64,000 nucleotides of DNA from an uncultured Paenibacillaceae bacterium (GTDB lineage Bacteria; Bacillota; Bacilli; Paenibacillales; K13): contig CAJXLT010000002.1 of assembly GCA_913056365.1 (NCBI GenBank), positions 186,001 to 250,000 on the forward strand, written 5' to 3'. The notes beneath the pieces were generated by a model. That model searched no databases, was not told where the DNA came from, and was given only the letters and a program-made list of their open reading frames with translations. The translations under genes and the position numbers were made by a program. This document shows, piece by piece, positions 18,449-32,136 of this stretch. Position 1 is the stretch's first letter. Each line of letters starts with the position of its first letter.

Positions 18449-18562
18449 AACATCGCCTCCTTGCAAGACCGACTTGAAATGCTCCACCCTTTTCGGTCGG
18501 TCCTGCAACGCTAAAGGCAAGCATGTGATTAACTATTTGTGAAGGAAATCTTCTCCATGAGA

Positions 18563-19156
18563 TTATGCGAGTGGGGTATTATGATGCTGTAAAGTGAAAC
18601 CTTCATTAATGATACTAGACCGACTGCTCATATTGCAATAAATAGGATCAAAGTTGTGCTTCCGGTAAATCGCCATTAAGGCTTCATTAAATGCAAAGAT
18701 TTCATTAAGAGAAGGAATCGGCATGAATTCTGCTTTCGTTCCTCTTTTAGGTTGAAAGATGCTGTAATCCGGAACAACACCCAATTCAGATAATTCTCTA
18801 ACGCCATCAATGAGTACATATACGGGCTGCAATCCTAATACAAAATTACTTCGCACCTTCCCAAATCCAAATACATCCACAGCTTCCCTATACTTGTTAA
18901 GGAGAACGTGATATGGCGTCTTGCCGGGGCAAATTTTCGTATAGTCTTTCTCCCCTGCAACCTCCATATTGTACTGCACCCACTTCACTCCAGTTTCCTT
19001 GGCAGCGTGCAGTTGCTCCATATTATCGTGCGGGCAAATATTCAAATAGGTGTCAAATCTGGATAGAGGAATTGCTTGATTCAAAGTATGCATAATATCA
19101 TATGTGAAATCCCATACACTTTTTTCATCGGATAAATTGCCTGCCATGAACACCAA
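18563..19156 (-). pseudogene. Radical-SAM-like C-terminal half, N-terminus missing
   Basis: About 197 residues that look like the second half of a radical SAM barrel of the HydE/biotin synthase type: VFMAGNLSDE, YLNICPHDNMEQLHAAKETG, VQYNMEV, KICPGKTPYHVLL, FGFGKVRSNFVLGLQP and LGVVPDYSIFQPKRGT. No CxxxCxxC cluster motif exists. The frame is open upstream to a TGA at 19223-19225 and still reads like protein (TFLLEHEQVGPHQHLVF), but no ATG or Shine-Dalgarno is present there. Either a frameshift split it from the preceding gene, or a deletion removed the cluster-binding part. A deliberate cluster-less paralogue is the alternative. Confidence 0.5.
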
Positions 19157-19170
19157 ATGTTGGTGAGGAC

Positions 19171-20025
19171 CTACTTGCTCGTGTTCCAGAAGGAATGTAA
19201 GAGTCTTGACGTATATACTTTGTCAATCACAATCCAGTCTCCCTCCTCAGGGAGCAGCAACGAATAGTTGAATTCTTCTTCTCTATCGCGCCGGTAAAGC
19301 TGATAGGGATCGTTCTGGCGGTGAACTTCGGTAAAATATATGTGCGGGTCATGCGTACCATTTCCGTACCCTAATGCTAGAGACAACCCCGCAGTCAGAA
19401 CAAACAGCTTGTTCTTCCCCAGCTCAGCAATTTGAGACCATACCCGATGATTCTGATAAACCTTGTCAAGATGAAACATCTTTATCTGTGGCCAGTACTC
19501 GGGAATTATCCCCTCTTTGTATTTATGAACGATATGCTCATTTAGACGCTGGGCGAACGGTGAAAGAGATGTAAAATTTTTAATAGCATGCAGCCCCCTC
19601 CCATCGTATGGAATGTACGAAATTTTTTGATGTAGACTGAGCCGTTCGTAAATTTCCGTCAAGACCCATTGCTTGAATTTATGAAGTTCCGAGTTGGAAG
19701 GACCACATATCGCAATTTCTGTATCAAGTCCATCTCCGTATATTCGTTTCAATGCGGTGTTACTTAAATAACGATCGAGTTCAAGTTGTATCAAATCATA
19801 GCAATCGATAATGGTTTGACTGTCACACAAGTTGAGCGGGTATTCCGGATTGCCTATATCACAGAGCATGACTTCAGGATATCTCAGTACATAAGTAATC
19901 TCCTGTATGGAACAGCCGTCATCTAGTATCTTCTTGGTCTCCGCATAATGCGACGTACTTACGCCGCTTACTGTCCGATTGCAATGAGCGGCACTTGTTA
20001 ACTGGATTGGGACGAATTGGCGCAA
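19171..20025 (-). CDS. Unrecognised protein, weak phosphoribosyltransferase-like C-terminus
   Basis: 284 residues from a TTG start with GGAGGAGG about 9 nt upstream. Late motifs LFVLTAGLSLALGYG, DPHIYFTEVHRQND and DWIVIDKVYTSR resemble the strand-loop pattern of PRPP-binding phosphoribosyltransferases, but the usual DDxxxTGxT loop is not intact. The frame stops 14 bp before the radical-SAM-like ORF. The sequence after IDKVYTS in the next frame continues like protein, so the two may be one frameshifted gene of about 480 codons. It is third in an operon with NTP_transf_5- and TMK-like genes. Confidence 0.5.
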   Translation of the reverse strand: MRQFVPIQLTSAAHCNRTVSGVSTSHYAETKKILDDGCSIQEITYVLRYPEVMLCDIGNPEYPLNLCDSQTIIDCYDLIQLELDRYLSNTALKRIYGDGLDTEIAICGPSNSELHKFKQWVLTEIYERLSLHQKISYIPYDGRGLHAIKNFTSLSPFAQRLNEHIVHKYKEGIIPEYWPQIKMFHLDKVYQNHRVWSQIAELGKNKLFVLTAGLSLALGYGNGTHDPHIYFTEVHRQNDPYQLYRRDREEEFNYSLLLPEEGDWIVIDKVYTSRLLHSFWNTSK

Positions 20026-20064
20026 TTTCGATTCACCTCCTCCGATCTAACACCCTGATTCCTG

Positions 20065-21702
20065 TCATGTGAGCGGACTCAACTCGATTTCTCCTTCGAA
20101 GAATGGCGATGGCCAGACTAAATGTGTGTGCAACTCCCAATCGTCAGATAAATAATCAAAATACCTGACCCTGAACTTAAAGCACCTTCCATGATGCAAG
20201 GTAAAAGGAAGCTCCTTACAAGGAATTGTTCCCGTTAGCAAATAGCCGGATGCATGCAACCCTTGCACATGCCAGTCGTGATCTTGTACGATTTCTCCTG
20301 TCTCACCGATCAGTCGTCTCAACTGGGCTTGTTGATCGCACAGACCCGCGCAAAATTGTGCCGACGCGTTGCGGTCATTCGCGTAAAACTGGATCGCTAT
20401 CCCATCCGTAAATCCCCATGGAAAGCGCCACGGATCCTCTTTTGCCAGCCCGATGACCCGGGTAGTATGAACACGAAGTTGCATATGAACGAACTGCTCA
20501 TCCCATTGAAGGCACCAAGAGAAGGCTGGTAGTCCCTTACTCCCTTCCCTTCCTTCCTGAATACATGATTCAAGCCTGTCCATACCAGCTTCATAGGCAG
20601 AACCAACCGTAATCCAGTCAGCGAACTGGTCTTGTACGTACGGGCTTGCTCTATATGCTGGGAAGCTGCAAAGGCGTTCTTCTCGAGCGGCTTGCTTAAT
20701 TGCCTGCAGTTCTTCTGACGGATGGAACGCAAATTTCCAGAAAGATGTCGTATAGCTTCCATATTTCCAAGTATCATCAAGCAACCGCTCTATGGAGCAA
20801 GATGCTGCAAACTGCCGATACAACACTAGCAACCGTTCATTGCTCGCCCCCACATATGCATACAGATCTAGGAGCCTCTTAATAGCGACACGCATGATAA
20901 CAGTGGCATTCAGTATTTCAGATCGAGACGTGATGACATTGAGATTGTCAGGGGCATTGAAATAATACATTTGCAACGCTCTCCAAAAGTCCAGAAGTTT
21001 CTTGACAGTAACTCGGGGCGCCACTAGCGTATCGTTAGGTTCCATCTCGGTTACATGATGGTAGACGTGCCAGGCGCACAGAATGAGTGTATCGACAGCA
21101 CCAGGACTGGTATATCCCTTCTCGTGATCATAAACGGCATCATGGAAAACGCTTTCTATTTGTAAACCATGAAAGTTACGAGTCTGATGCAGCTCTACTT
21201 TGAATCTTTCTTGATATTCGTTTTTTTCAGCACTTACTAGAACGACTGCATCGTGCTGCCAACGAACCATCGCTTCGAGACTATGAATGAGCGGACGATG
21301 GTAATAGCCGTTGGACAACAAGACTTCTCTGGCTTTCAATAATTCGTCCTTCGATACAAGCATATCAATGTCACGTGAAGATCGCTCTCCTGCATCCGGA
21401 TATAATTTCTCCGAAAAGTCCACACCTTTCAAGCAGACACACTTGATTCCGGCTGACATCAACAATTGAGTCAGTCGTCGGGTCTCTTGCAGATACGTCA
21501 CATGCCTCTGTCGATTCAGCAACCAAATTTCTCTGGACCAGCGGATGCTGTGCATATCCATATCCGGCGACTCCGCAATCATCCTGGCTGCTAATCCTTC
21601 TGATTTGAATGTCACAGACAAATCCTTCAATTCGTCTACATCATTGGCGGTCAGAGATTTATAAGGTAAATCCAATGCTGCTCGAATCAATCGTTTTATC
21701 AT
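20065..21702 (-). CDS. NTP_transf_5-type nucleotidyltransferase with CBM9-like C-terminal domain
   Basis: 545 residues. Residues 1 to about 350 fit the NTP_transf_5 family: CVCLKGVDFSEKLYP, then SSRDIDMLV with the paired aspartates of nucleotidyltransferases, and LCAWHVYHHV later. Residues from about 400 to 545 (FSWCLQWDEQFVHMQLRVHT, DGIAIQFYAND) resemble a CBM9/DOMON-type beta sandwich that usually binds sugars. Such nucleotidyltransferases often sit in peptide or glycan modification clusters. Its substrate is unknown. AAAGGAG precedes the ATG. The gene lies between the TMK-like and the unrecognised gene and is cotranscribed with them. Confidence 0.65.
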   Translation of the reverse strand: MIKRLIRAALDLPYKSLTANDVDELKDLSVTFKSEGLAARMIAESPDMDMHSIRWSREIWLLNRQRHVTYLQETRRLTQLLMSAGIKCVCLKGVDFSEKLYPDAGERSSRDIDMLVSKDELLKAREVLLSNGYYHRPLIHSLEAMVRWQHDAVVLVSAEKNEYQERFKVELHQTRNFHGLQIESVFHDAVYDHEKGYTSPGAVDTLILCAWHVYHHVTEMEPNDTLVAPRVTVKKLLDFWRALQMYYFNAPDNLNVITSRSEILNATVIMRVAIKRLLDLYAYVGASNERLLVLYRQFAASCSIERLLDDTWKYGSYTTSFWKFAFHPSEELQAIKQAAREERLCSFPAYRASPYVQDQFADWITVGSAYEAGMDRLESCIQEGREGSKGLPAFSWCLQWDEQFVHMQLRVHTTRVIGLAKEDPWRFPWGFTDGIAIQFYANDRNASAQFCAGLCDQQAQLRRLIGETGEIVQDHDWHVQGLHASGYLLTGTIPCKELPFTLHHGRCFKFRVRYFDYLSDDWELHTHLVWPSPFFEGEIELSPLT

Positions 21703-21735
21703 ACAAGCTCCTTTCCAGCCATATAAGGCTTGATA

Positions 21736-22431
21736 CTAAACTACATGCGATCGTTCGGTGCTAGCAGCCTTAATCTCTGAAATTCGGTCTGCAATGGTGT
21801 GAACAATCTGACTTCGGCTTAGTTGATCTGTATGCAGCACATTCCAATTGCTCTCCGCGGCGAGTTTTAAATACGTTTCTGAGACCTTGCTCTGAAACGA
21901 AACAAATCGTTCACGCGCATCGCCAATGTGGTTATCAAATTCGCCCAGCTCCGGCTTGGAGAAGGATGTTCTTCTGCTCCAGCAAATCGCAGGGTCTGCA
22001 TGCAACAGAAACACTGCATCGCCAGTTTGCAAACCGGAGAAGATACTGTGTAACAGCGTCTTATTGAAATGTTCTTTTGTCATGAATCGAGCCAAAATTT
22101 TATAATACCATGCATCAATGACAACTATTTTATTTTGCGCTTTCATAGGTGAAATATGGTATTGATCCAATAACTGATACCAGAGCGCATGCATGAACAA
22201 CCAACACTCATCCGGCATCTCCCGAAGTGGATCATCATTGTTATATTTCCAGAAAATTTCCTTGAATTGCTTCATAAACGCATGAATGTATGGCGTTTGT
22301 TCAGGAACATCCTTTCTGGTAATCTGCGTAGCATCATATCCCCGCTCGTTGAGAGCCTCCACTACCTGCGCCACCGTACTGGATTTCCCGCTCGCATCAA
22401 TACCTTCAATCGTCACAAATAATCCGCTCAA
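21736..22431 (-). CDS. Thymidylate kinase-like P-loop protein
   Basis: 231 residues. The Walker A motif GIDASGKSS and FVTIEGID are typical of thymidylate kinases. The DR(F/Y) motif of housekeeping Tmk is replaced by IDAWYYK, and a lid-like CWSRRTSF segment is present. The protein is therefore probably a specialised nucleotide or nucleoside kinase. TTG start with AAGGAGG 9 nt upstream. It is the first gene of a four-gene minus-strand operon, divergent from the ABC exporter. Confidence 0.7.
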   Translation of the reverse strand: MSGLFVTIEGIDASGKSSTVAQVVEALNERGYDATQITRKDVPEQTPYIHAFMKQFKEIFWKYNNDDPLREMPDECWLFMHALWYQLLDQYHISPMKAQNKIVVIDAWYYKILARFMTKEHFNKTLLHSIFSGLQTGDAVFLLHADPAICWSRRTSFSKPELGEFDNHIGDARERFVSFQSKVSETYLKLAAESNWNVLHTDQLSRSQIVHTIADRISEIKAASTERSHVV

Positions 22432-22545
22432 ATGGATTTTCCTCCTTCAATCCGATTTCATAGTATTTGCAATTTTCCAACTTTTCGTTATCATGTCAAT
22501 ATAAATACAATCATGCGAATTAAAAATCATGATGATGAATTTTTC

Positions 22546-22574
22546 TTGACACCTTTTGATAACGCTTTCATTAT
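22546..22574 (+). promoter_or_regulatory. Sigma-A-type promoter of the ABC-2 exporter operon
   Basis: TTGACA (22546-22551), a 17-bp spacer and CATTAT (22569-22574) lie about 84 bp upstream of the first permease start. The spacer contains a cre site. Confidence 0.65.
22557..22570. promoter_or_regulatory. cre (CcpA) site inside the exporter promoter
   Basis: TGATAACGCTTTCA matches every position of the cre consensus TGWNANCGNTNWCA. It lies between -35 and -10, so CcpA bound here would repress. Confidence 0.65.
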
Positions 22575-22657
22575 AAACCGGATGTAATAAACATGTGAAT
22601 CCCACATTTTGGATTTTTCTGTTACAAATCTGATCCATTCCAAAGAAGGTGAACGAC

Positions 22658-23458
22658 TTGATTAAGTACGTTTCGATTTCCATTATAGCTTTCAAGCATT
22701 TGTACGTGTATAAATTGGATATACTTCTCCGCCTAATCACTGCGTTTTTAACCGTTTTTGCTCTGAAGGAGCTATGGACCGTCATTTACCACAGCGGAGA
22801 CAATGTAGCCGACTCCAGTGGCGTCTCCCTTGTATCCATGACAACTTATGCCATGGCATCTCATATTTTGCGTGCCATTCTAGCACAGGATCTGTCTATT
22901 GAAGTCGAGCATCGCGTCAGAAACGGTGATATCGTCTTCGACATTATGAAGCCATGGAATTATATGATCATGCAACTATCCAGAGTTATCGGCCAAAGCT
23001 TGTACAGCACGCTGTTCATCGTAATCCCGTTACTTTTGACATGCTCATTGATGTTTCCATTTGAGTCGCCTGATGATCCGCTACAACTTATGACTGTCCT
23101 GATTAGCGTAACGCTAGCGTTCTTCATTAACTTTATGATCAACTTTCTCATTTCCTTATTGGCCTTTTTGTTTACGTCTGTATGGGGATTTGAGTTTGTG
23201 AAATGGGTACTGATTGAAGTGTTTTCTGGCTTATGGATTCCGATTTGGTTCTTTCCCGAAGCCGCGAGTAGAATACTTTTTATGCTGCCATTCCAAGCTA
23301 TCTACCATACACCCTTGTCCATCTTCATCGGTCGTTTTTCAGAACTGGAAGCATTGAAACATATCGGAGTGCAAGCAATTTGGCTAGTCCTATTGGCAAT
23401 TCTCTCTCAAAGTGCGTACGTGTTTTTAAGACGTCAATTACAAATAGCGGGGGGGTAA
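22658..23458 (+). CDS. ABC-2 family transporter permease (COG4587-like)
   Basis: About 266 residues with six membrane segments, typical of the ABC2_membrane_6-type half permeases that occur in pairs. The TTG at 22658 is preferred over the GTG at 22649, because AAGGTG lies 6 nt before the TTG and overlaps the GTG. A VEHRVRNGDIVFDIMKPWNYM segment matches the cytosolic coupling region of this family. It overlaps the next permease by one base (TAATG). The family is an uncharacterised export or uptake system. Confidence 0.75.
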   Translation: MIKYVSISIIAFKHLYVYKLDILLRLITAFLTVFALKELWTVIYHSGDNVADSSGVSLVSMTTYAMASHILRAILAQDLSIEVEHRVRNGDIVFDIMKPWNYMIMQLSRVIGQSLYSTLFIVIPLLLTCSLMFPFESPDDPLQLMTVLISVTLAFFINFMINFLISLLAFLFTSVWGFEFVKWVLIEVFSGLWIPIWFFPEAASRILFMLPFQAIYHTPLSIFIGRFSELEALKHIGVQAIWLVLLAILSQSAYVFLRRQLQIAGG

Positions 23459-24261
23459 TGAAGATACGTTACTTTAAGCTATGGCTCAGCTTGGAGCATG
23501 CAAATTTAAAAGCAAGAACAACCTACCTGTTTAACTTTGTCGTCGGCATAGTCAGTGTGTCGATCCTTGGCTTATCTACCGTCTTTATTACTTGGATCAT
23601 TACACGACAAATTCCGGTCATTGGCGGTTGGAATTTCTATCAAATGTTATTTATCTATTCCATGTGGCGGGTTTCACACGCGCTTTTTAATATATTTGGC
23701 AATCATATTAGTTCGATCGACTATTTTCTGAGAGAAGGGCAATTGGACCGTTTATTAGTCAGACCGCTTCCAGTGCTATTTAGTTTTTTTACCCTTAGAA
23801 TCAATATTGGCGGTATCGGAGACCTTCTGGCCGGACTAACGGGACTTTACTATGCGTACTCACATATATTTGAATGGCATGTCGCCACTGTCTTTTTAAT
23901 ATTATTCCTATCTATTAACGGCGCTGTTATTGAATGGTCTCTCTTTACCATGATCGCTTCTCTCGCCTTTTGGACACTTCAGTCGAACGGACTTCGTTCC
24001 ATCATGGAGACATTCCTATACACATTTACACGATTTCCGCAAAATATATACAGCATTAAGATCCAACTGATCATGACATTTATTTTCCCAATCGGGTTTA
24101 TGAGCTTCTATCCGTCGCAAGCGTTGTTTGGCAATACAGAAAGCACCCCATTCTTCCAAGCTCTCGCCTATTTGTCACCGCTTGTGGCCATTCTCATGGC
24201 TACACTGACCGTTTGGATATGGAATCAAGGTATGAAAGTTTACAAAGGAGCTGGTTCTTAA
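23458..24261 (+). CDS. ABC-2 family transporter permease (COG3694-like)
   Basis: About 267 residues from the ATG at 23458, which overlaps the previous stop. The longer start in the ORF track lies within the upstream gene. Six helices; FLREGQLDRLLVRPLPVLFSF is the family's cytosolic loop. With the preceding gene it should form the heterodimeric membrane part of the transporter. Confidence 0.75.
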   Translation: MKIRYFKLWLSLEHANLKARTTYLFNFVVGIVSVSILGLSTVFITWIITRQIPVIGGWNFYQMLFIYSMWRVSHALFNIFGNHISSIDYFLREGQLDRLLVRPLPVLFSFFTLRINIGGIGDLLAGLTGLYYAYSHIFEWHVATVFLILFLSINGAVIEWSLFTMIASLAFWTLQSNGLRSIMETFLYTFTRFPQNIYSIKIQLIMTFIFPIGFMSFYPSQALFGNTESTPFFQALAYLSPLVAILMATLTVWIWNQGMKVYKGAGS

Positions 24262-24262
24262 T

Positions 24263-25273
24263 ATGAAATGTATTGAAGTTCAAGATTTGGTGAAAGAATA
24301 CCCTGTTTTCGAGAAGGCAAACCATTCATTTCGCCTGCTTCAGTCCATTTGGGGCAGAAAGCGGTTTGACAAGCGTGTAGTGGACGGATTGTCATTTGCC
24401 ATCGACAGAGGGGAATTCGTAGGATACCTAGGCCCGAATGGAGCAGGAAAATCGACCACATTAAAAATGTTGTCCGGTGTGCTTACCCCCACTGCAGGCT
24501 CGATTAAAGTAGAAGGAGCGGTGCCGCATAAGCAGCGCATCGAGCATGCCAAACGTATCGGGGTGGTGTTCGGACAAAGGACCCAATTATGGTGGGATCT
24601 TCCGTTACTTGATTCCTTCAAACTGCTCGCAAAAGTGTATGACGTGCCTCGTTCCGTAGAACAGCATAATATTGCGCAGTTTGTTGAACTATTGGACCTT
24701 CATGATTTCTTGCATACGCCAGTGAGACAGCTCAGTCTGGGACAGCGCATGCGCGGTGAGATCGCTGCTGCCTTGCTCCATAATCCCCATATCCTGTTCC
24801 TAGATGAGCCGACTATCGGCTTAGATATTGTAGCTAAGGAGAAGATTCAGACGTTCCTCAAGGAAATCAATCAGGAATTGAACGTCACTGTACTGCTGAC
24901 TACACACAACATGGACGACGTGGAGAAATTGTGTGACCGCGTCATCTTAATCGATAGCGGCAAGATTGTGTTCAACGGACAGACCTGCCAGCTGCTGCGT
25001 TCATTCGGAGAGAAAAAACGTCTACTAATTGAAGTATCCACTACCTTTAATGAGAATGAATGGAATGGTCCGCCATTTTTCATACATGAACGGAATAGCT
25101 TGCAATTTGAGATTACAGAGAACAAGGATATAGCGACAATTGTGAATCAAGTATCTCAGCTTACAATCATTCAGGACATTAAGATTATGGAGTCGAAAAT
25201 AGAAGATGTGCTGCGCAGTTTGTATCTTGAAAAGGAAACATCTACTAGATTGGACATGGACAAGAAAGCGTAG
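24263..25273 (+). CDS. ABC-2 transporter ATP-binding protein (COG4586-like)
   Basis: 336 residues. Walker A GPNGAGKST, signature LSLGQRMRGE, Walker B ILFLDEPTIGLD and H-loop LTTHNMDDVE are all present. GVVFGQRTQLWWDLPLLDSF is characteristic of the COG4586 group, which travels with the two permease types seen here. AAAGGAGC lies upstream. The gene ends the exporter operon; a modest GGTTACT/AGTAACC hairpin follows at 25310-25344. Confidence 0.85.
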   Translation: MKCIEVQDLVKEYPVFEKANHSFRLLQSIWGRKRFDKRVVDGLSFAIDRGEFVGYLGPNGAGKSTTLKMLSGVLTPTAGSIKVEGAVPHKQRIEHAKRIGVVFGQRTQLWWDLPLLDSFKLLAKVYDVPRSVEQHNIAQFVELLDLHDFLHTPVRQLSLGQRMRGEIAAALLHNPHILFLDEPTIGLDIVAKEKIQTFLKEINQELNVTVLLTTHNMDDVEKLCDRVILIDSGKIVFNGQTCQLLRSFGEKKRLLIEVSTTFNENEWNGPPFFIHERNSLQFEITENKDIATIVNQVSQLTIIQDIKIMESKIEDVLRSLYLEKETSTRLDMDKKA

Positions 25274-25463
25274 TTTCCCCCTAGAATAGCATTTTGAAGC
25301 TTTTATTAAGGTTACTCTTAGACAAATCTACGACATAAGTAACCTCATGATATATCCACTTTCACCCTTTTTTTAGTCTTACTTTTAATTAGGGTATTCC
25401 TTATGATGCCTGAAACATTTAACATAGAGCTACTATACCAAGAAGAGAGGTAACTGACCAAAG

Positions 25464-25874
25464 ATGATCATGTCAGCTCAACAATTACAATCGCCGCTTG
25501 CCTCCATCTCGACCTTGAAAGATGTCATTAATTGCGGGACCATTCGCTACGCGTATAACGCCCGTCTCGCGCACTACACGGATCCGTTCGACTACATGCA
25601 GCTTCATTGTGACAAAAAAAATATCACCTATGCGATCTACGGTGAACATCTCTCTTTGAACGGCATACAGTTTGTGTTGCCCCATTCTTTCATGAAATCC
25701 ATTTACCATGTGTTTATTTTCCCTGCTGAAGTAATGGTAGATCCACTGCAAATGGAAATTGACGATGAATTGATCATGTTCTTATACTTGATCCTAGATT
25801 TATACGAGCAAGGCAAATTACTAGCGAAAGAATCGGCAGACGGTAAGGTACGACGAATCAAATCTTTCGGCTAA
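25464..25874 (+). CDS. Standalone copy of an undescribed domain (see 27908 gene)
   Basis: 136 residues, no known motif. Its body aligns along its length with the N-terminal region of the condensation protein encoded at 27908: shared IRYAYN, PFDYM-L-C, IY-V, DPL-M-IDD-L, FLY, LY--GKLL. The absence of signal peptide and membrane helices suggests a cytosolic protein. Starts at 25464 and 25470 are both possible, with AGAGAGG upstream. It is followed by a long hairpin. Function unknown; a partner or inhibitor of the fused protein is possible. Confidence 0.65.
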   Translation: MIMSAQQLQSPLASISTLKDVINCGTIRYAYNARLAHYTDPFDYMQLHCDKKNITYAIYGEHLSLNGIQFVLPHSFMKSIYHVFIFPAEVMVDPLQMEIDDELIMFLYLILDLYEQGKLLAKESADGKVRRIKSFG

Positions 25875-25910
25875 TTGCAGTATCTTCGTTCAGAATCGTT
25901 AAGAACACCT

Positions 25911-25958
25911 CATGATTTCCAGGCCTTCTGCCAATCGGCAAAAGACCTGGAAATCATG
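25911..25958. terminator. Long hairpin between convergent genes
   Basis: The 13-bp stem CATGATTTCCAGG/CCTGGAAATCATG contains an inner TGCC/GGCA stem. It separates the standalone-domain gene from the convergent lipoprotein gene. No T-run is present. Confidence 0.65.
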
Positions 25959-25979
25959 TCTATACGAAACTATCTAGTC

Positions 25980-26846
25980 TCACTCATTTATTTCAATTAA
26001 TGCTTTCATGACTTCTTCCCATTGTTTAGCATGATCCTGGTCTACGACACTCCCTTTTCTGGTCGTTAAACTCACCGAAGGATGTTCGGACTCAGGGCTT
26101 TCTACGATATGCAGGAATACAACATATTCATGATTCGCTTTGTATTGCTTGGGAAGTGAGAGTTTTTCGAAATTGTGTATACGTTCATCACCCTTATAGA
26201 GTTGGATAAGATCATAATTGAACCTTCGGATCATGTCACTTTCATAAGTAAAATCATTCGTCTGAATATGGATGATATAGTCTGATTCCTGAATGAGTTG
26301 GCTAAGGCTATCCGGTTTTTCTTTAATCTTTCTTTTTTCCTTTATCTTCTCATACCCCGGGGACTTCTTTATTTTCCCGATAATATCGTCTAATTTCTCC
26401 CCTTCATGGGGCCCGGAAGTAATCGTCTTATTTTCCACAGGAATATCTAGATGCGGATTGGCCAATATATATATGCTGTTCGGGTATTTTTCGGAATCAA
26501 ATTGCTCTAGGAACAGCACCTCCGACTCCTTTTCTTTGGCAAATGCAGTGACCGCATAGACTTCGATTTGCGATTTTTTCTTCAATGAACCTTTGATAAC
26601 TTCTTCTACTTCGATTATATACTTTGTTTGATTCTTGCTTCCATATTCAACGGGTCGGGTAAGTGCACCAACTATGATCTCGTCAGCCAATTCTGTCAAT
26701 CCTTCAATCTCGCGATATTTTTCACTGACTAGGGCGTTTGGCAAAGTTGACATATCTTCCTCTTCAGTGGCCGCATGAGTGCACGCAGCAAGGAGTAGGG
26801 TCAATAATGCTAATATATAAAACAGACGTGTTCCTTTTTTCATCAT
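25980..26846 (-). CDS. Lipoprotein of unknown function
   Basis: 288 residues. The N-terminus MKKGTRLFYILALLTLLLAAC ends in a lipobox, so it is likely lipid-anchored outside the cell. Two similar beta-rich halves can be discerned: ADEIIVGALTRPV with KYIIEVEEVIKGSL, and SDYIIHIQTNDF with RFNYDLIQLYKGDE. They look like two copies of the same fold, separated by a Lys-rich linker (KIKEKRKIKEK). No enzymatic motif. It lies just downstream of the metalloprotease gene, suggesting cotranscription. Confidence 0.6.
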   Translation of the reverse strand: MMKKGTRLFYILALLTLLLAACTHAATEEEDMSTLPNALVSEKYREIEGLTELADEIIVGALTRPVEYGSKNQTKYIIEVEEVIKGSLKKKSQIEVYAVTAFAKEKESEVLFLEQFDSEKYPNSIYILANPHLDIPVENKTITSGPHEGEKLDDIIGKIKKSPGYEKIKEKRKIKEKPDSLSQLIQESDYIIHIQTNDFTYESDMIRRFNYDLIQLYKGDERIHNFEKLSLPKQYKANHEYVVFLHIVESPESEHPSVSLTTRKGSVVDQDHAKQWEEVMKALIEINE

Positions 26847-26867
26847 TGGGAATTCCCCCCTTATATT

Positions 26868-27500
26868 TTAGTAGACCTGTACCAAATGTTCTTTATCCCT
26901 AGTTGTTAAGCTGTTTGTGTTGCTATACGTACTATGATACATTAAATCGTCATCATTGTTTGAATGCCCTCTCCATCCTAGACCATGCCCAAACTCATGT
27001 GTCAATACCTTATCATAGAATTGCGAATTTTCATTCGAATCATATGGAATGAAAATTTCAATACTTAATTGAATTTGACCATATTTATTGGTGTTATTAT
27101 ATGCCCATACTCCTTCAAAAATGGAATGGCTCCATTTGGTCCAACCATCAAATGATGATGGCAAACCAGATTCGATATCCCTTAAATCACTAATATTGCC
27201 GCCATATATTCTAAAGTTTGAATTGGATTCACTTGCTACGCTATCAATAGATATCCCAGCATTTCTCCAGGCGTTTCTAGCTGTATTCACATGGCTTATA
27301 AAGGTGATACTTGAAAAACCACTAAGTGTTTCCGAATAAGTTTTTGGCGCTAATTGCCAACGTGCAATTTCGCTAAACACATTTCCTCCATGGTAAGCGT
27401 GCCAATGATCTAGAGTCCCTAAATTATTGGTTGCATATGTGCTGACTTGCAAGAGGAGTACTAGCGGTAGAACAAAGAAAAATACCCTTTTCAATTTCAT
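26868..27500 (-). CDS. Secreted matrixin-like zinc metalloprotease
   Basis: About 210 residues from the ATG at 27500 (GGGAGG upstream). Residues 1-23 form a signal peptide. HEFGHGLGWRGH is the extended HExxHxxGxxH zinc site of metzincins, followed by DDDLMYHSTYS with the Met of the Met-turn. There is no visible pro-domain with a cysteine switch. It should be an extracellular peptidase. It is paired with the lipoprotein gene and lies opposite the flanking plus-strand genes. Confidence 0.75.
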   Translation of the reverse strand: MKLKRVFFFVLPLVLLLQVSTYATNNLGTLDHWHAYHGGNVFSEIARWQLAPKTYSETLSGFSSITFISHVNTARNAWRNAGISIDSVASESNSNFRIYGGNISDLRDIESGLPSSFDGWTKWSHSIFEGVWAYNNTNKYGQIQLSIEIFIPYDSNENSQFYDKVLTHEFGHGLGWRGHSNNDDDLMYHSTYSNTNSLTTRDKEHLVQVY

Positions 27501-27907
27501 TTTCTGACCTCCCAGTAAAGTTGATTGAAAGCTGGCCAGCATTTCTATCACACTATAACCAGAAAACAGTAAATCTGTTAATCCCTAATTCATCCTACAA
27601 CCTCATTCCAGAAGTCGTAGACGAATATAAGACTCGAATTGATCACCCGCTACACGGACTTAGATCATGTGGTACAACTACCTCTTGGTGGAGGCACGTC
27701 CCATCTACGGACTCCACCCTTCTCATCTGACGAACCCCATTCTATAAACGGGTCTATTCATCTCACTAGGTTCATTCCTTTGTCTCTTTCACCCGCACAT
27801 TTCACCCATGCCAATCGTCACCCTTTTTTGATATTAGGGATTGACTTCATATGTAGGAATATTTACGATGAAATTATCCTGAACAAGAAATGAGGGAATT
27901 GATTACA
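27501..27907. other. Intergenic region between divergent metalloprotease and condensation-domain genes
   Basis: About 400 bp with AT-rich segments and no gene. It must contain both promoters. On the plus strand a TTGACT at 27841 is a possible -35, but no convincing -10 at 17 bp was seen. The start of the downstream gene is set by GAGGGA at 27892-27897. Confidence 0.45.
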
Positions 27908-29611
27908 ATGAATTCGCATGAAACCTCGAACTATGAACGATCGATCTATAATATAAAGGAATCCATTAATCAAGCAGCGATTCGTTATGCATACAATTCG
28001 ATCGTATCTAGTTATATCGGACCATTTGATTATATGATGCTACAATGTGACGGTGTCAATCTCAATTATTCATTGCATACTAAGCATGCTTCGCAAGATA
28101 GTATTCAGATTATTCTGCCGCTAAAATTGATCAAGCCGATTTATGAAGTCTTATTGCCTTATGCTGAAGATATAGAAGATCCTTTATCCATGAACATAGA
28201 CGATAATCTCGCGGTCTTCTTATACTATGTCTCAGAGTTATATGATACTGGCAAGCTGTTAGGAACGCACATAGAAGGCACGCAAGCTGTGCACATTCAC
28301 GCTCTAGCCACTTCACATATTTCGCTTCCGCTCACCCATCCGCAGAAGCGAATATGGGCTATCGAACGAATCTATAATGAAGAGAAGACAGGTATGCATA
28401 ATTTGGGCTTACTCATTCACATAGACGGCGTCGTTCAATTTGACATTTTACAAACAGCCATCCAGACTGTTCTGTCCCAGCATGATGGAATTAGACTCCA
28501 GTTCACAGAACAAGGCGCCCAATATGTTGCCGAATACGAGCAAGAAGCGTTGCCTTTCGTTGACTATTCCAGCAAATCTTACGAAGAAGCATTGGGCTTG
28601 TTGGAAGACAGCGTTCAATTGTATATGCCTATCGTGGACTCACCATTATATGCGATCACACTTGTCCGATTTACCAATCAACAGTCCGGCTACATGATTA
28701 AGACACACCATGCTATTTCGGACGGCTGGAGCATACAGCTTATAACAGATCAAATTCGCGACTTGTACACAGCATTGTCAACGAATCAACCTTACGAATT
28801 CAAAGTACAATCGTATTTGGATTATATGAAGAAGGAACAATCCTACTTGGAATCCAAGCGCGCTCAGCAGGACAAGCAGTTCTGGCTTGAAATGTTTGCT
28901 GAACTGCCTGCTCGCCTGCGTCAGCATTCCATACAACAAGTACAGACAAGAGGAAGGAGAGAGGTGTATACTGTTGACCGCACGATTACCCGGCAGCTGA
29001 ATCAACTGCTCCAAGCGGACGGCACCAAAGCCTCTACGAACTCTTTCTTTATTACAGTATTCTTCTTGTATGAATGGATGACTACCGGCAGAACAGACAT
29101 TATCGTCGGAACGCCTGTACTCAATCGGTCAGGTGCGAAGGAAAAGAGCATGTTCGGCATGTTTACGAGTACGATGCCATTCCGATATGCGATACCGGAT
29201 GACATATCGTTCATCAAGATGCTTCATACGCTCAGCTCTAAGCTTATGCAATGTTACTTCCATCAGAGATATCCTTACGACATGCTAATCAAGGAGCTCA
29301 GATCGTCGCATGAATTCCTTAGTGATTTATTTTCGATATCCGTAAATTATTACAACACGAAGCTAGCCCCTCAGTTTGACCGCTATTCCGTGAACAATGT
29401 AGAGTTGTACAGCGGTCACCAGTTCTTCCCTTTGAATATCATTATTAAGGAGTGGACTGAATTACAAGTAGCATATGATTACCGTCTGGACATGTATACG
29501 TCTGCTGAAGTGAGTACCCTGCACAACAACATTGTAACGATCATGAAGCTTTGTCTGCGCCATCCCCAAATCAGTATTCATGAATTACGAGAACATATGG
29601 AAAGGATCTAG
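27908..29611 (+). CDS. Novel N-terminal domain fused to a lone condensation domain
   Basis: About 567 residues from the ATG at 27908 (GAGGGA upstream). Residues from about 15 to 125 form the domain shared with the 25464 gene. Residues from about 140 onward are a full NRPS-type condensation domain: LTHPQKRIWAIERIY (C1-like), HHAISDG at 267-273 with the catalytic second His and the Asp, and IVGTPVLNRSG and MLIKELRSS further on. No adenylation or carrier domain is present here or nearby. It could acylate or condense a freely diffusing carrier substrate, or act as a pseudo-enzyme. The hybrid kinase gene follows after 6 bp. Confidence 0.75.
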   Translation: MNSHETSNYERSIYNIKESINQAAIRYAYNSIVSSYIGPFDYMMLQCDGVNLNYSLHTKHASQDSIQIILPLKLIKPIYEVLLPYAEDIEDPLSMNIDDNLAVFLYYVSELYDTGKLLGTHIEGTQAVHIHALATSHISLPLTHPQKRIWAIERIYNEEKTGMHNLGLLIHIDGVVQFDILQTAIQTVLSQHDGIRLQFTEQGAQYVAEYEQEALPFVDYSSKSYEEALGLLEDSVQLYMPIVDSPLYAITLVRFTNQQSGYMIKTHHAISDGWSIQLITDQIRDLYTALSTNQPYEFKVQSYLDYMKKEQSYLESKRAQQDKQFWLEMFAELPARLRQHSIQQVQTRGRREVYTVDRTITRQLNQLLQADGTKASTNSFFITVFFLYEWMTTGRTDIIVGTPVLNRSGAKEKSMFGMFTSTMPFRYAIPDDISFIKMLHTLSSKLMQCYFHQRYPYDMLIKELRSSHEFLSDLFSISVNYYNTKLAPQFDRYSVNNVELYSGHQFFPLNIIIKEWTELQVAYDYRLDMYTSAEVSTLHNNIVTIMKLCLRHPQISIHELREHMERI

Positions 29612-29617
29612 ACTGCG

Positions 29618-31753
29618 ATGCGTCTGACAGCAAGTGCTTCAGCTATCCAAGTATGGGAACAATCACACAATATGGATTTTTTGCACATTGTTTTATCCTC
29701 TATTTTTTTATTTGTCGGAAGTATGATTTTTTTCCTGTCTTATTACAATAAGCAAAAGCTGTATATGTATATGGGACTGTTCATCTTAGGAATGGCGATC
29801 TACGCCTTCACGCTTACGAACGTCAAACAACTGTTCTATTCCAATGAAGATGTGTGGATTCATATCAAAATATATACAGAATTTTTATTGCCTGTCGTTC
29901 TCTATTTGTTCTACGAACATCTATTTGGGGCGGAGCGTTTTATTCGACTTGCTTGGAAGGTCCATATTACATTCGCTCTGCTTAGTATCCTGTTTATTCA
30001 GTTCAATATTTTTGAATTATCGCAAACTTTCCTGCCATTTAATTTATTATGCCTGCTCTCATTATCTGTTATGCTGTTTTATACGATTAGGAAAGTGTTC
30101 CAAGGCGACCAAGAAGCCAAAATTTATATGAGCGGGGTCACTATATTTCTCATTACCGGTATTCATGATGTGCTGCGGGCGCTAGGAATCGTTGATTCAC
30201 GTGTGCAGCTATTGGTACTAGGATTTTTCGGATTAATTGTAGCCCTCTCCCTTATTGTCGGCATGCGGATACGGGCGGTATATAAGAGGCTGGAACAGCA
30301 CAATCAGTCTCTTGCGGTGCTAGATGAGCTTAAGGATGAATTTCTTGCCAATACCTCGCATGAACTGCGGACGCCTCTGAACGGGATTATCGGTATTGCC
30401 GAGTCGCTATTAGACGGTGCAGCAGGTCCTGTCAGCGAAGCGATGCGACGCAACTTGAACATGATTGCAGCGAGTGGTATGCGACTCTCCAATCTCGTGA
30501 ATGATATTCAAGACTATGCCAAGCTGAAGCACAAGGACATCCAACTCATACTCGAACCGGTTCGCGTACACGATATTGTAGAGACGGTCGTTGCCTTCTT
30601 GAAGCCTTTAGCGGAGAAGAAGCAATTACAGCTGAGCTGTCATATATCGCAATTGCCAAACATTCAAGCAGACAAAAATCGGTTGCAGCAAATTCTCTAC
30701 AATCTGATTGGCAATGCGATCAAATACACGCATGAAGGAACGATAGAAGTACTTGGCAAGAATGAAGGCAGTGAAATCATATTTGAAATCAAGGATACGG
30801 GTATAGGCATACCGGAAGACAAATGGGCAAGTATCTTCGTCGCCTTCGAGCAAGCAGACGGCTCCGCATCGCGATCCTATGATGGTACAGGACTCGGCTT
30901 GTCGATCACGAAGCACTTAGTCGAATTGCATGGAGGTGAGATTCACCTGCAATCCCATGTAGGGCAAGGTTCTACCTTTACATTCACCCTCCCCTGTTCC
31001 GAATCGGCTGAGGAATTAACCGAAATAGATGAGCGCACTAATACTGAGCCTGCCCGCTCCTCTGCTTGGATCTCGGCATCTGACACATGTATGGAGTATG
31101 AATCGGCAAGAAGCGATGTGGAAGGGAATATTCTCATTGTGGAGGATGATCCGATTAATGTGCAGGTCATCCAAAATCATTTAGCTTTGCGGAATTGGGG
31201 GACGAAGGTAGTAAGCAACGGTCTTGATGCCTTAGAGATAATCAGTCGATACAAGATTGATCTCGTCTTGCTAGACATCATGATGCCGAAGCTATCGGGG
31301 TACGAAGTGTGCAAGCGTATACGTCAGACATTCCCTGCAGAAGAATTACCAGTCATTATGCTCACAGCTATGAATACCGCGGAGGATATTTCGAAGGGCT
31401 ATGCATCTGGCGCGAATGACTACTTGCTCAAGCCATTCTCCAAGATGGAGCTGCTCGCTCGCATCGAAGCACACTTGCGGCTACGGGAATTGGAGTTGCA
31501 GAAGGCTCGATCTCTGTTTACGAAAACCGAGCTGGCAATCCTGTCTTATTACGCTAAGTATTCAGGTGAGACGCGTCGGCAAATCTTGGATCGCTTCAAT
31601 GCGAAACGGTCACATCCGATCACAGAGAAGACACTCGCCACTCATATTACGAACATCTTGAAGAAGGTCAAAGCTAGCAGTATGATGGAAGCCGCTCAAA
31701 CCGCAAAGCGCAAAAATCTTCTACAATCATCGGAAAGCACTAAGCATGCTTAG
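29618..31753 (+). CDS. Membrane hybrid histidine kinase with receiver and LuxR-like HTH
   Basis: 711 residues. Residues 20 to about 218 carry about seven membrane helices (7TM-DISM-like sensor without an extracellular domain). HisKA has the phospho-acceptor in NTSHELRTPLNG (His248). The ATPase domain shows LIGNAIKYT, KDTGIGIPEDK and GTGLGLS. A receiver follows with IVEDDPINVQ, LVLLDIMMPKLSGY and KPFS. The final ~70 residues (FTKTELAILSYYAK, ITEKTLATHITNILKKVKASS) resemble a LuxR-type DNA-binding HTH. The whole pathway from sensing to DNA binding would thus be in one membrane protein. Probably coexpressed with the condensation protein. Confidence 0.8.
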   Translation: MRLTASASAIQVWEQSHNMDFLHIVLSSIFLFVGSMIFFLSYYNKQKLYMYMGLFILGMAIYAFTLTNVKQLFYSNEDVWIHIKIYTEFLLPVVLYLFYEHLFGAERFIRLAWKVHITFALLSILFIQFNIFELSQTFLPFNLLCLLSLSVMLFYTIRKVFQGDQEAKIYMSGVTIFLITGIHDVLRALGIVDSRVQLLVLGFFGLIVALSLIVGMRIRAVYKRLEQHNQSLAVLDELKDEFLANTSHELRTPLNGIIGIAESLLDGAAGPVSEAMRRNLNMIAASGMRLSNLVNDIQDYAKLKHKDIQLILEPVRVHDIVETVVAFLKPLAEKKQLQLSCHISQLPNIQADKNRLQQILYNLIGNAIKYTHEGTIEVLGKNEGSEIIFEIKDTGIGIPEDKWASIFVAFEQADGSASRSYDGTGLGLSITKHLVELHGGEIHLQSHVGQGSTFTFTLPCSESAEELTEIDERTNTEPARSSAWISASDTCMEYESARSDVEGNILIVEDDPINVQVIQNHLALRNWGTKVVSNGLDALEIISRYKIDLVLLDIMMPKLSGYEVCKRIRQTFPAEELPVIMLTAMNTAEDISKGYASGANDYLLKPFSKMELLARIEAHLRLRELELQKARSLFTKTELAILSYYAKYSGETRRQILDRFNAKRSHPITEKTLATHITNILKKVKASSMMEAAQTAKRKNLLQSSESTKHA

Positions 31754-31760
31754 TGCTTTC
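31733..31760 (+). terminator. Palindromic terminator overlapping the kinase stop codon
   Basis: GAAAGCACTAAGCATGCTTAGTGCTTTC is a perfect 28-bp palindrome that includes the last codons and the TAG of the kinase gene. The following T-run is weak. Confidence 0.65.
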
Positions 31761-31803
31761 TATATCTCTGTTTCATCACCATCTTCATCTCTTCTCATTC
31801 ATT

Positions 31804-32136
31804 TCAACTCATGGCGAAGTAATAGGAATAATGATACCGGCACTTCGGATTGAATGAGCTCTGACATTCGGGGCAAGCGGCCTCGCAAGCTATATAATCT
31901 TGAATCGTTAGCTCCGTTCGGCACACTCCACACAGAATCGCCTGCTCGTTCCATTCCGAACGCTGCCACACAACAGGCGAATGATCAACCGCTTCCTCGT
32001 GACAGTAAATGCAACCATAGTAACGGTCACAGCATTTGAACCGAATGGCGATACGGTCTAGTTCACTGTGGTAATGACTGCATCTAGTCTGTTCATCAAT
32101 GGCGCCGATGACGCATATGTTCCTTGCATCTGCCAA
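31804..32136 (-). CDS. CHY zinc finger protein
   Basis: 110 residues matching the CHY zinc finger family: IDEQTRCSHYHSELDRIAIRF, KCCDRYYGCIYCHEEA, LCGVCRTELTIQDY and CPECQSSFNP. It binds several zinc ions through the paired Cys/His sites. Eukaryotic relatives (Hot13) act in zinc or redox handling; the bacterial role is not known. The TTG start at 32136 has only a distant AGGAAG. It follows the thioesterase gene on the same strand. Confidence 0.8.
   Translation of the reverse strand: MADARNICVIGAIDEQTRCSHYHSELDRIAIRFKCCDRYYGCIYCHEEAVDHSPVVWQRSEWNEQAILCGVCRTELTIQDYIACEAACPECQSSFNPKCRYHYSYYFAMS

Follow-up and report, generated by a model that had tools for sequence, protein, structure and literature searches.

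The window analysed here, 64,000 nucleotides of a contig from an uncultured Paenibacillaceae bacterium, carries two forward-strand genes whose products share a domain. The first gene (25464-25874, +) is an open reading frame for a protein of 136 aa and the second (27890-29611, +) encodes 573 aa; both frames sit where the initial annotation had placed them. In the larger protein the shared domain, called the orphan domain below, occupies residues ~1-134 (27890-28291, +), with similarity to the 136-aa protein over residues 5-125. It is followed by a free-standing condensation (C) domain (PF00668, Pfam E 1e-65; residues 146-566, 28325-29587, +), so that the domain end proposed earlier, at 28310, falls close to the true boundary. 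The Pfam match covers nearly the whole model (positions 5-444 of 456), and the catalytic motif HHxxxDG is intact as HHAISDG (residues 273-279; 28706-28726, +). Six nucleotides after the condensation gene begins the gene of a hybrid histidine kinase (29618-31753, +), in which Pfam identifies a 7TMR-DISM 7TM part, HisKA, HATPase, a receiver domain, and a LuxR/GerE-type tail. This kinase is 46% and 42% identical to unlinked kinases of two other genomes (G203 and G083, respectively), neither of which adjoins a C gene, and a search for papers that treat a condensation domain together with 7TMR-DISM found none. A lipoprotein-like gene (25980-26846) and a gene for a short, secreted peptidase of the matrixin type (M10; 26868-27551), both on the minus strand, separate the two copies of the orphan domain. 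The G+C content of this part of the window (0.39-0.43) is lower than that of its flanks.

The likeness between the 136-aa protein and the N-terminal domain of the condensation protein is far beyond chance. BLASTP aligns the smaller protein to residues 5-125 of the larger one without gaps, with 52/121 residues identical (43%) and 76/121 similar (105 bits, E 7e-32), and the motifs IRYAYN, PFDYM, IY-V, DPL-M-IDD, and LY--GKLL singled out in the initial annotation are all aligned and conserved. Its proposal of one domain, present alone and fused to a condensation domain, is thus supported, and its failure to recognise a known domain was borne out by profile searches, which placed the orphan domain in no described family. 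Neither the two copies nor the related extension of a second condensation protein (from genome G083, see below) matches a Pfam family at E<1, TubC-type docking domains and MbtH included. The orphan domain has no NCBIfam match and nothing above noise in PADLOC, its best hit in PHROGs reaches only E 0.11, and the best among PDB sequences, also at E 0.11, corresponds to chance. AlphaFold models of both copies, built from two-row alignments, are of low confidence (mean pLDDT ~51), have no more in common than a succession of three strands and a C-terminal helix, and retrieve no structural relative by Foldseek at E<=0.001. An MbtH-like or PqqD-like fold was considered on topological grounds and was set aside, as sequence support for it is nil.

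The 4.65-Mb genome to which the window belongs (G000) holds no third copy of the orphan domain. When 399 genomes of the order and 400 of the class were searched by profile, no relatives appeared outside this genus, and none came from two genome-contig scans, a scan of viral sequences, or a tblastn search of phages and plasmids. One match in another genome (G253, E 1e-4) was dismissed as chance, given its internal stop and phage-like neighbour genes. Judged from these searches, the orphan domain is confined to this genus, together with a likely, very diverged relative in another family (G083).

Within the genus, the sister species G001 retains the 136-aa gene in the corresponding position, shortened at its end. 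The two standalone copies agree at 57/95 aligned residues, with dN 0.28, dS ~2.8 (a saturated value), and dN/dS ~0.1. Upstream of the gene, a 27-nt block (25374-25400, +), possibly a promoter or operator, is identical in G001 at 22/27 positions. Taken together, the low dN/dS and the conserved upstream block argue that the standalone gene was under purifying selection. Upstream of the fusion gene, the signals are weak and consist of a partial match and an identity of 12 nt (TCACCCTTTTTT); this identity and a 20-nt pattern were unconvincing for the fusion gene as signs of a promoter common to both copies, and we rejected that idea.

G001 lacks a segment of ~6.2 kb, corresponding to window positions 25760-32003 (blastn break 25764/32000, with a short TGAC microhomology), which spans the end of the 136-aa gene, the entire fusion and kinase genes, and part of a CHY zinc-finger gene (31804-32136). 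Given that two genes are cut at the break points, the difference is due to a single deletion in G001 rather than an insertion in the window genome, and the common ancestor carried the unit. Farther upstream, ~7 kb of the window (18488-25460) has no counterpart in G001, which carries an alpha/beta hydrolase gene there instead; in the window, this stretch holds genes for a 197-aa protein, a 284-aa protein, an NTP_transf_5 nucleotidyltransferase, and a thymidylate-kinase-like protein on the minus strand, as well as three ABC transporter genes on the plus strand.

A comparable unit exists in G083, a genome from another family of the order. Its condensation protein (581 aa, L058:7821-9566; compared from an internal start, 543 aa) likewise carries an extension ahead of the C domain, its catalytic motif is intact (HHSICDG), and its gene is overlapped by 4 nt by that of a 7TM hybrid histidine kinase, which is 37% identical to the window kinase. 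The window kinase starts nearly at the 7TM part and is without the long extracellular region of its homologues in L058 and L059. Both free-standing C domains keep HHxxxDG and most near-invariant positions, and BLAST and phmmer alignments of the two fusion proteins begin at a shared DP motif, ~45 residues before the C domain. The G083 extension scores z 3.4-4.0 with the 136-aa protein and below 2 with the fused copy in semi-global alignment, and profile searches gave no match between it and the orphan domain. On these weak scores, the extension is a probable relative of the orphan domain. No further example of this extension was found in the other 104 genomes of the G083 family or in 200 additional genomes of the order. 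In other C proteins of 500-660 aa (G061, G367, G095, and G135), the C domain starts close to the N terminus and nothing comparable precedes it. The C-domain tree is compatible with a common origin of the two free-standing C domains and lends it no support (AU p 0.107), and the window kinase is less similar to the L058 kinase (37%) than to the unlinked kinases of G203 and G083. The G083 unit also bears on the order of events. The initial annotation had read the pair as a duplication followed by fusion; since in G083 the extension is already fused and a standalone copy was not found, it is equally possible that the 136-aa protein descends from a fusion protein by loss of the C domain.

The C domains closest to that of the window are the N-terminal C domains of single-module C-A-T-E synthetases of ~1,500 aa, to which it is 36-41% identical. 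Many of these synthetases precede a hydrolase/ABC exporter and some a glycosyltransferase; in the C-domain tree, the window domain sits on a long branch and in no starred group. Two such synthetases are encoded in the genome of the window. One (L049) has an intact starter motif, HHVIADG. The other (L050; 1,501 aa; G000:C1:1073534-1077970, L050:9501-14006, -) reads HSIITDR, as against HHIIADG in its G001 orthologue (L051), and shares its cluster with genes for a nitroreductase, a glycosyltransferase, and a fusion protein of beta-lactamase-like and ABC parts. The counterpart synthetase of G083 (L092) is also broken, with HPMVADA. In a survey of starter C domains of C-A-T-E synthetases (67 distinct domains, 55 genomes of the order), which was drawn from matches to the window C domain and may miss strongly decayed domains elsewhere, the catalytic second His is lost only in these two; one further domain (L093, G246:C1:707905-717205) reads NHLIADG, with the first His alone changed. 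The two genomes with a broken starter motif are also the only two in which we found a free-standing extension-C and kinase unit. By a naive estimate, such a coincidence has a chance of ~7e-4 per genome pair. The comparison was built after its first half, L050, had been seen; the G083 question was set down before its motif was read, and only that half counts as a prediction.

The two motif losses are independent, because the substitutions differ, the motif of L051 has survived, and L050 groups with L051 in the A-T-E tree (100/100), in which L092 has a different position (80/90). The decay is also confined to the C domain: the end branches of L050 and L051 measure 0.68 and 0.22 for the C domain versus 0.27 and 0.25 for A-T-E, and the A, T, and E motifs are intact in both L050 and L092. 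The two clusters share their layout of synthetase, nitroreductase, glycosyltransferase, and hydrolase/ABC genes. In clusters of the same layout from four other genomes (G001, G156, G324, and G380), the starter C domain is intact and a free-standing unit was not found. In both G000 and G083, the free-standing unit and the synthetase reside on different contigs. The loss is reciprocal between the sister species, G001 being without the free-standing unit and keeping HHIIADG in cis, and G000 showing the reverse. The G001 synthetase (L051:4959-9771, G001:C31) is itself divided into two overlapping frames that split within the A domain; the pathway may be gone from G001 or in the course of being lost, or the split may stem from an indel in the draft assembly.

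In lipopeptides, the acyl group is determined by the starter condensation domain, which as a rule belongs to the synthetase itself. We favour, tentatively and with a little less than even confidence, an interpretation in which the 573-aa protein is a starter-type C domain working in trans, the orphan domain recognises the partner, and the kinase regulates the unit. The protein would supply the first condensation, probably the acylation of a carrier-bound amino acid, to the C1 synthetase L050 and would thereby replace the synthetase's own starter C domain, the catalytic motif of which is gone. Given that a detached C domain must find its partner, the appended ~120-residue domain is, by analogy, the obvious candidate for a docking module, which might guide the C domain to the synthetase or to the acyl donor. 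Control of the unit probably lies with the 7TM hybrid kinase encoded downstream, which has a DNA-binding tail, and the 136-aa copy may occupy the same surface, be it as a competitor, a regulator, or an assembly helper that stabilises the contact. Catalysis in trans, docking, substrate, signal, and the job of the 136-aa protein are all points that we infer, and the pattern behind them comprises two instances joined by co-occurrence. Further points weigh against this interpretation: unit and synthetase are on separate contigs, the same genome encodes a second synthetase (L049) with an intact starter motif, neither the C-domain tree nor the kinase comparison ties the two units together, and the G083 extension resembles the orphan domain by weak scores. 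The sister species add a further argument. Their common ancestor possessed both a free-standing C domain and a working domain in cis; G001 then lost the former and G000 the latter, as expected of overlapping functions, which favours the trans interpretation. The initial annotation had suggested a regulatory or recruitment role in the same pathway. Recruitment is plausible and fits catalysis in trans; the likely partners, however, are the adjoining hybrid kinase and a synthetase encoded on a different contig.

The same observations could be arranged differently. The C protein might make a small acylated signal of its own from separate carriers, with the adjacent kinase sensing the product, the orphan domain recruiting a carrier, and the broken synthetase motif being coincidental. 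The C and kinase genes do lie side by side in the two lineages (separated by 6 nt in the window and overlapping by 4 nt in G083), no gene for an A or T domain lies beside the pair, and acyl amides are known products of free-standing C domains (PMC13142362). We nevertheless regard this scenario as rather unlikely, since it leaves unexplained both the match between free-standing and broken starter C domains and the reciprocal loss in G001, and since the window kinase is devoid of the extracellular sensor region of its homologues. Alternatively, the N-terminal domain might not dock at all and instead be a fast-diverging regulatory or folding module, with the 136-aa protein acting on the fusion protein as an inhibitor or as a partner of the antitoxin kind. 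Copies that are only 43% identical, together with a barely recognisable G083 relative, seem too divergent for a module that binds a conserved partner, and purifying selection on the standalone copy would suit such a role. We consider this improbable, as nothing speaks for it positively and G083 has the extension and, as far as we found, no standalone copy. That the pair is a decaying remnant of an old C-domain system without present function, as its deletion in G001, the low G+C content, and the long C-domain branch might suggest, is very improbable in view of three intact reading frames, a preserved HHxxxDG motif, and a dN/dS of ~0.1 for the standalone domain.

Returning to catalysis in trans, a bolder version can be formulated, in which a lineage-specific docking domain allowed a detached starter C domain to replace a dead cis domain twice independently, each time under its own kinase, and in which the standalone copy is a built-in competitor. 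We think this full version unlikely; if true, it would amount to a nonribosomal assembly line whose first step is regulated and can be exchanged. The more general trans interpretation, should it hold, would provide a natural case of a dead in-cis domain replaced by a separate protein with its own recognition domain and show how a starter step can be detached and regulated. It would also offer a natural docking pair for the engineering of assembly lines, and a first function for a domain described in no library. Even without a role in trans, it is notable that two families link a sensor kinase to a free-standing C domain that is intact.

The individual parts of the unit can be placed next to known systems. 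Similar to the N-terminal starter C domains of C-A-T-E synthetases, the window C domain belongs to PF00668 and carries HHxxxDG; unlike them, it is a separate protein with an additional N-terminal domain and adjoins a histidine kinase. VibH (PDB 1l5a, matched in our PDB search) and OaaC (PMC13142362) are likewise C domains without A or T domains of their own that rely on separately encoded carriers. OaaC-type domains often carry DHxxxDS (PMC13142362), whereas the window protein keeps HHxxxDG and adds the N-terminal domain. In the literature searched, neither such an N-terminal domain nor a broken cis counterpart was found for free-standing C enzymes. The TubC-type N-terminal docking domains of NRPSs resemble the orphan domain in its proposed role, partner recognition ahead of a C domain; the orphan domain is longer and has no Pfam match in any copy. 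The kinase shares its 7TM, HisKA, HATPase, receiver, and GerE-type parts with 7TMR-DISM hybrid histidine kinases and differs from its homologues in the absence of the long extracellular part. The C domain is of a known kind, and what sets the unit apart as a variant is the domain appended to it and the reciprocity between cis and trans.
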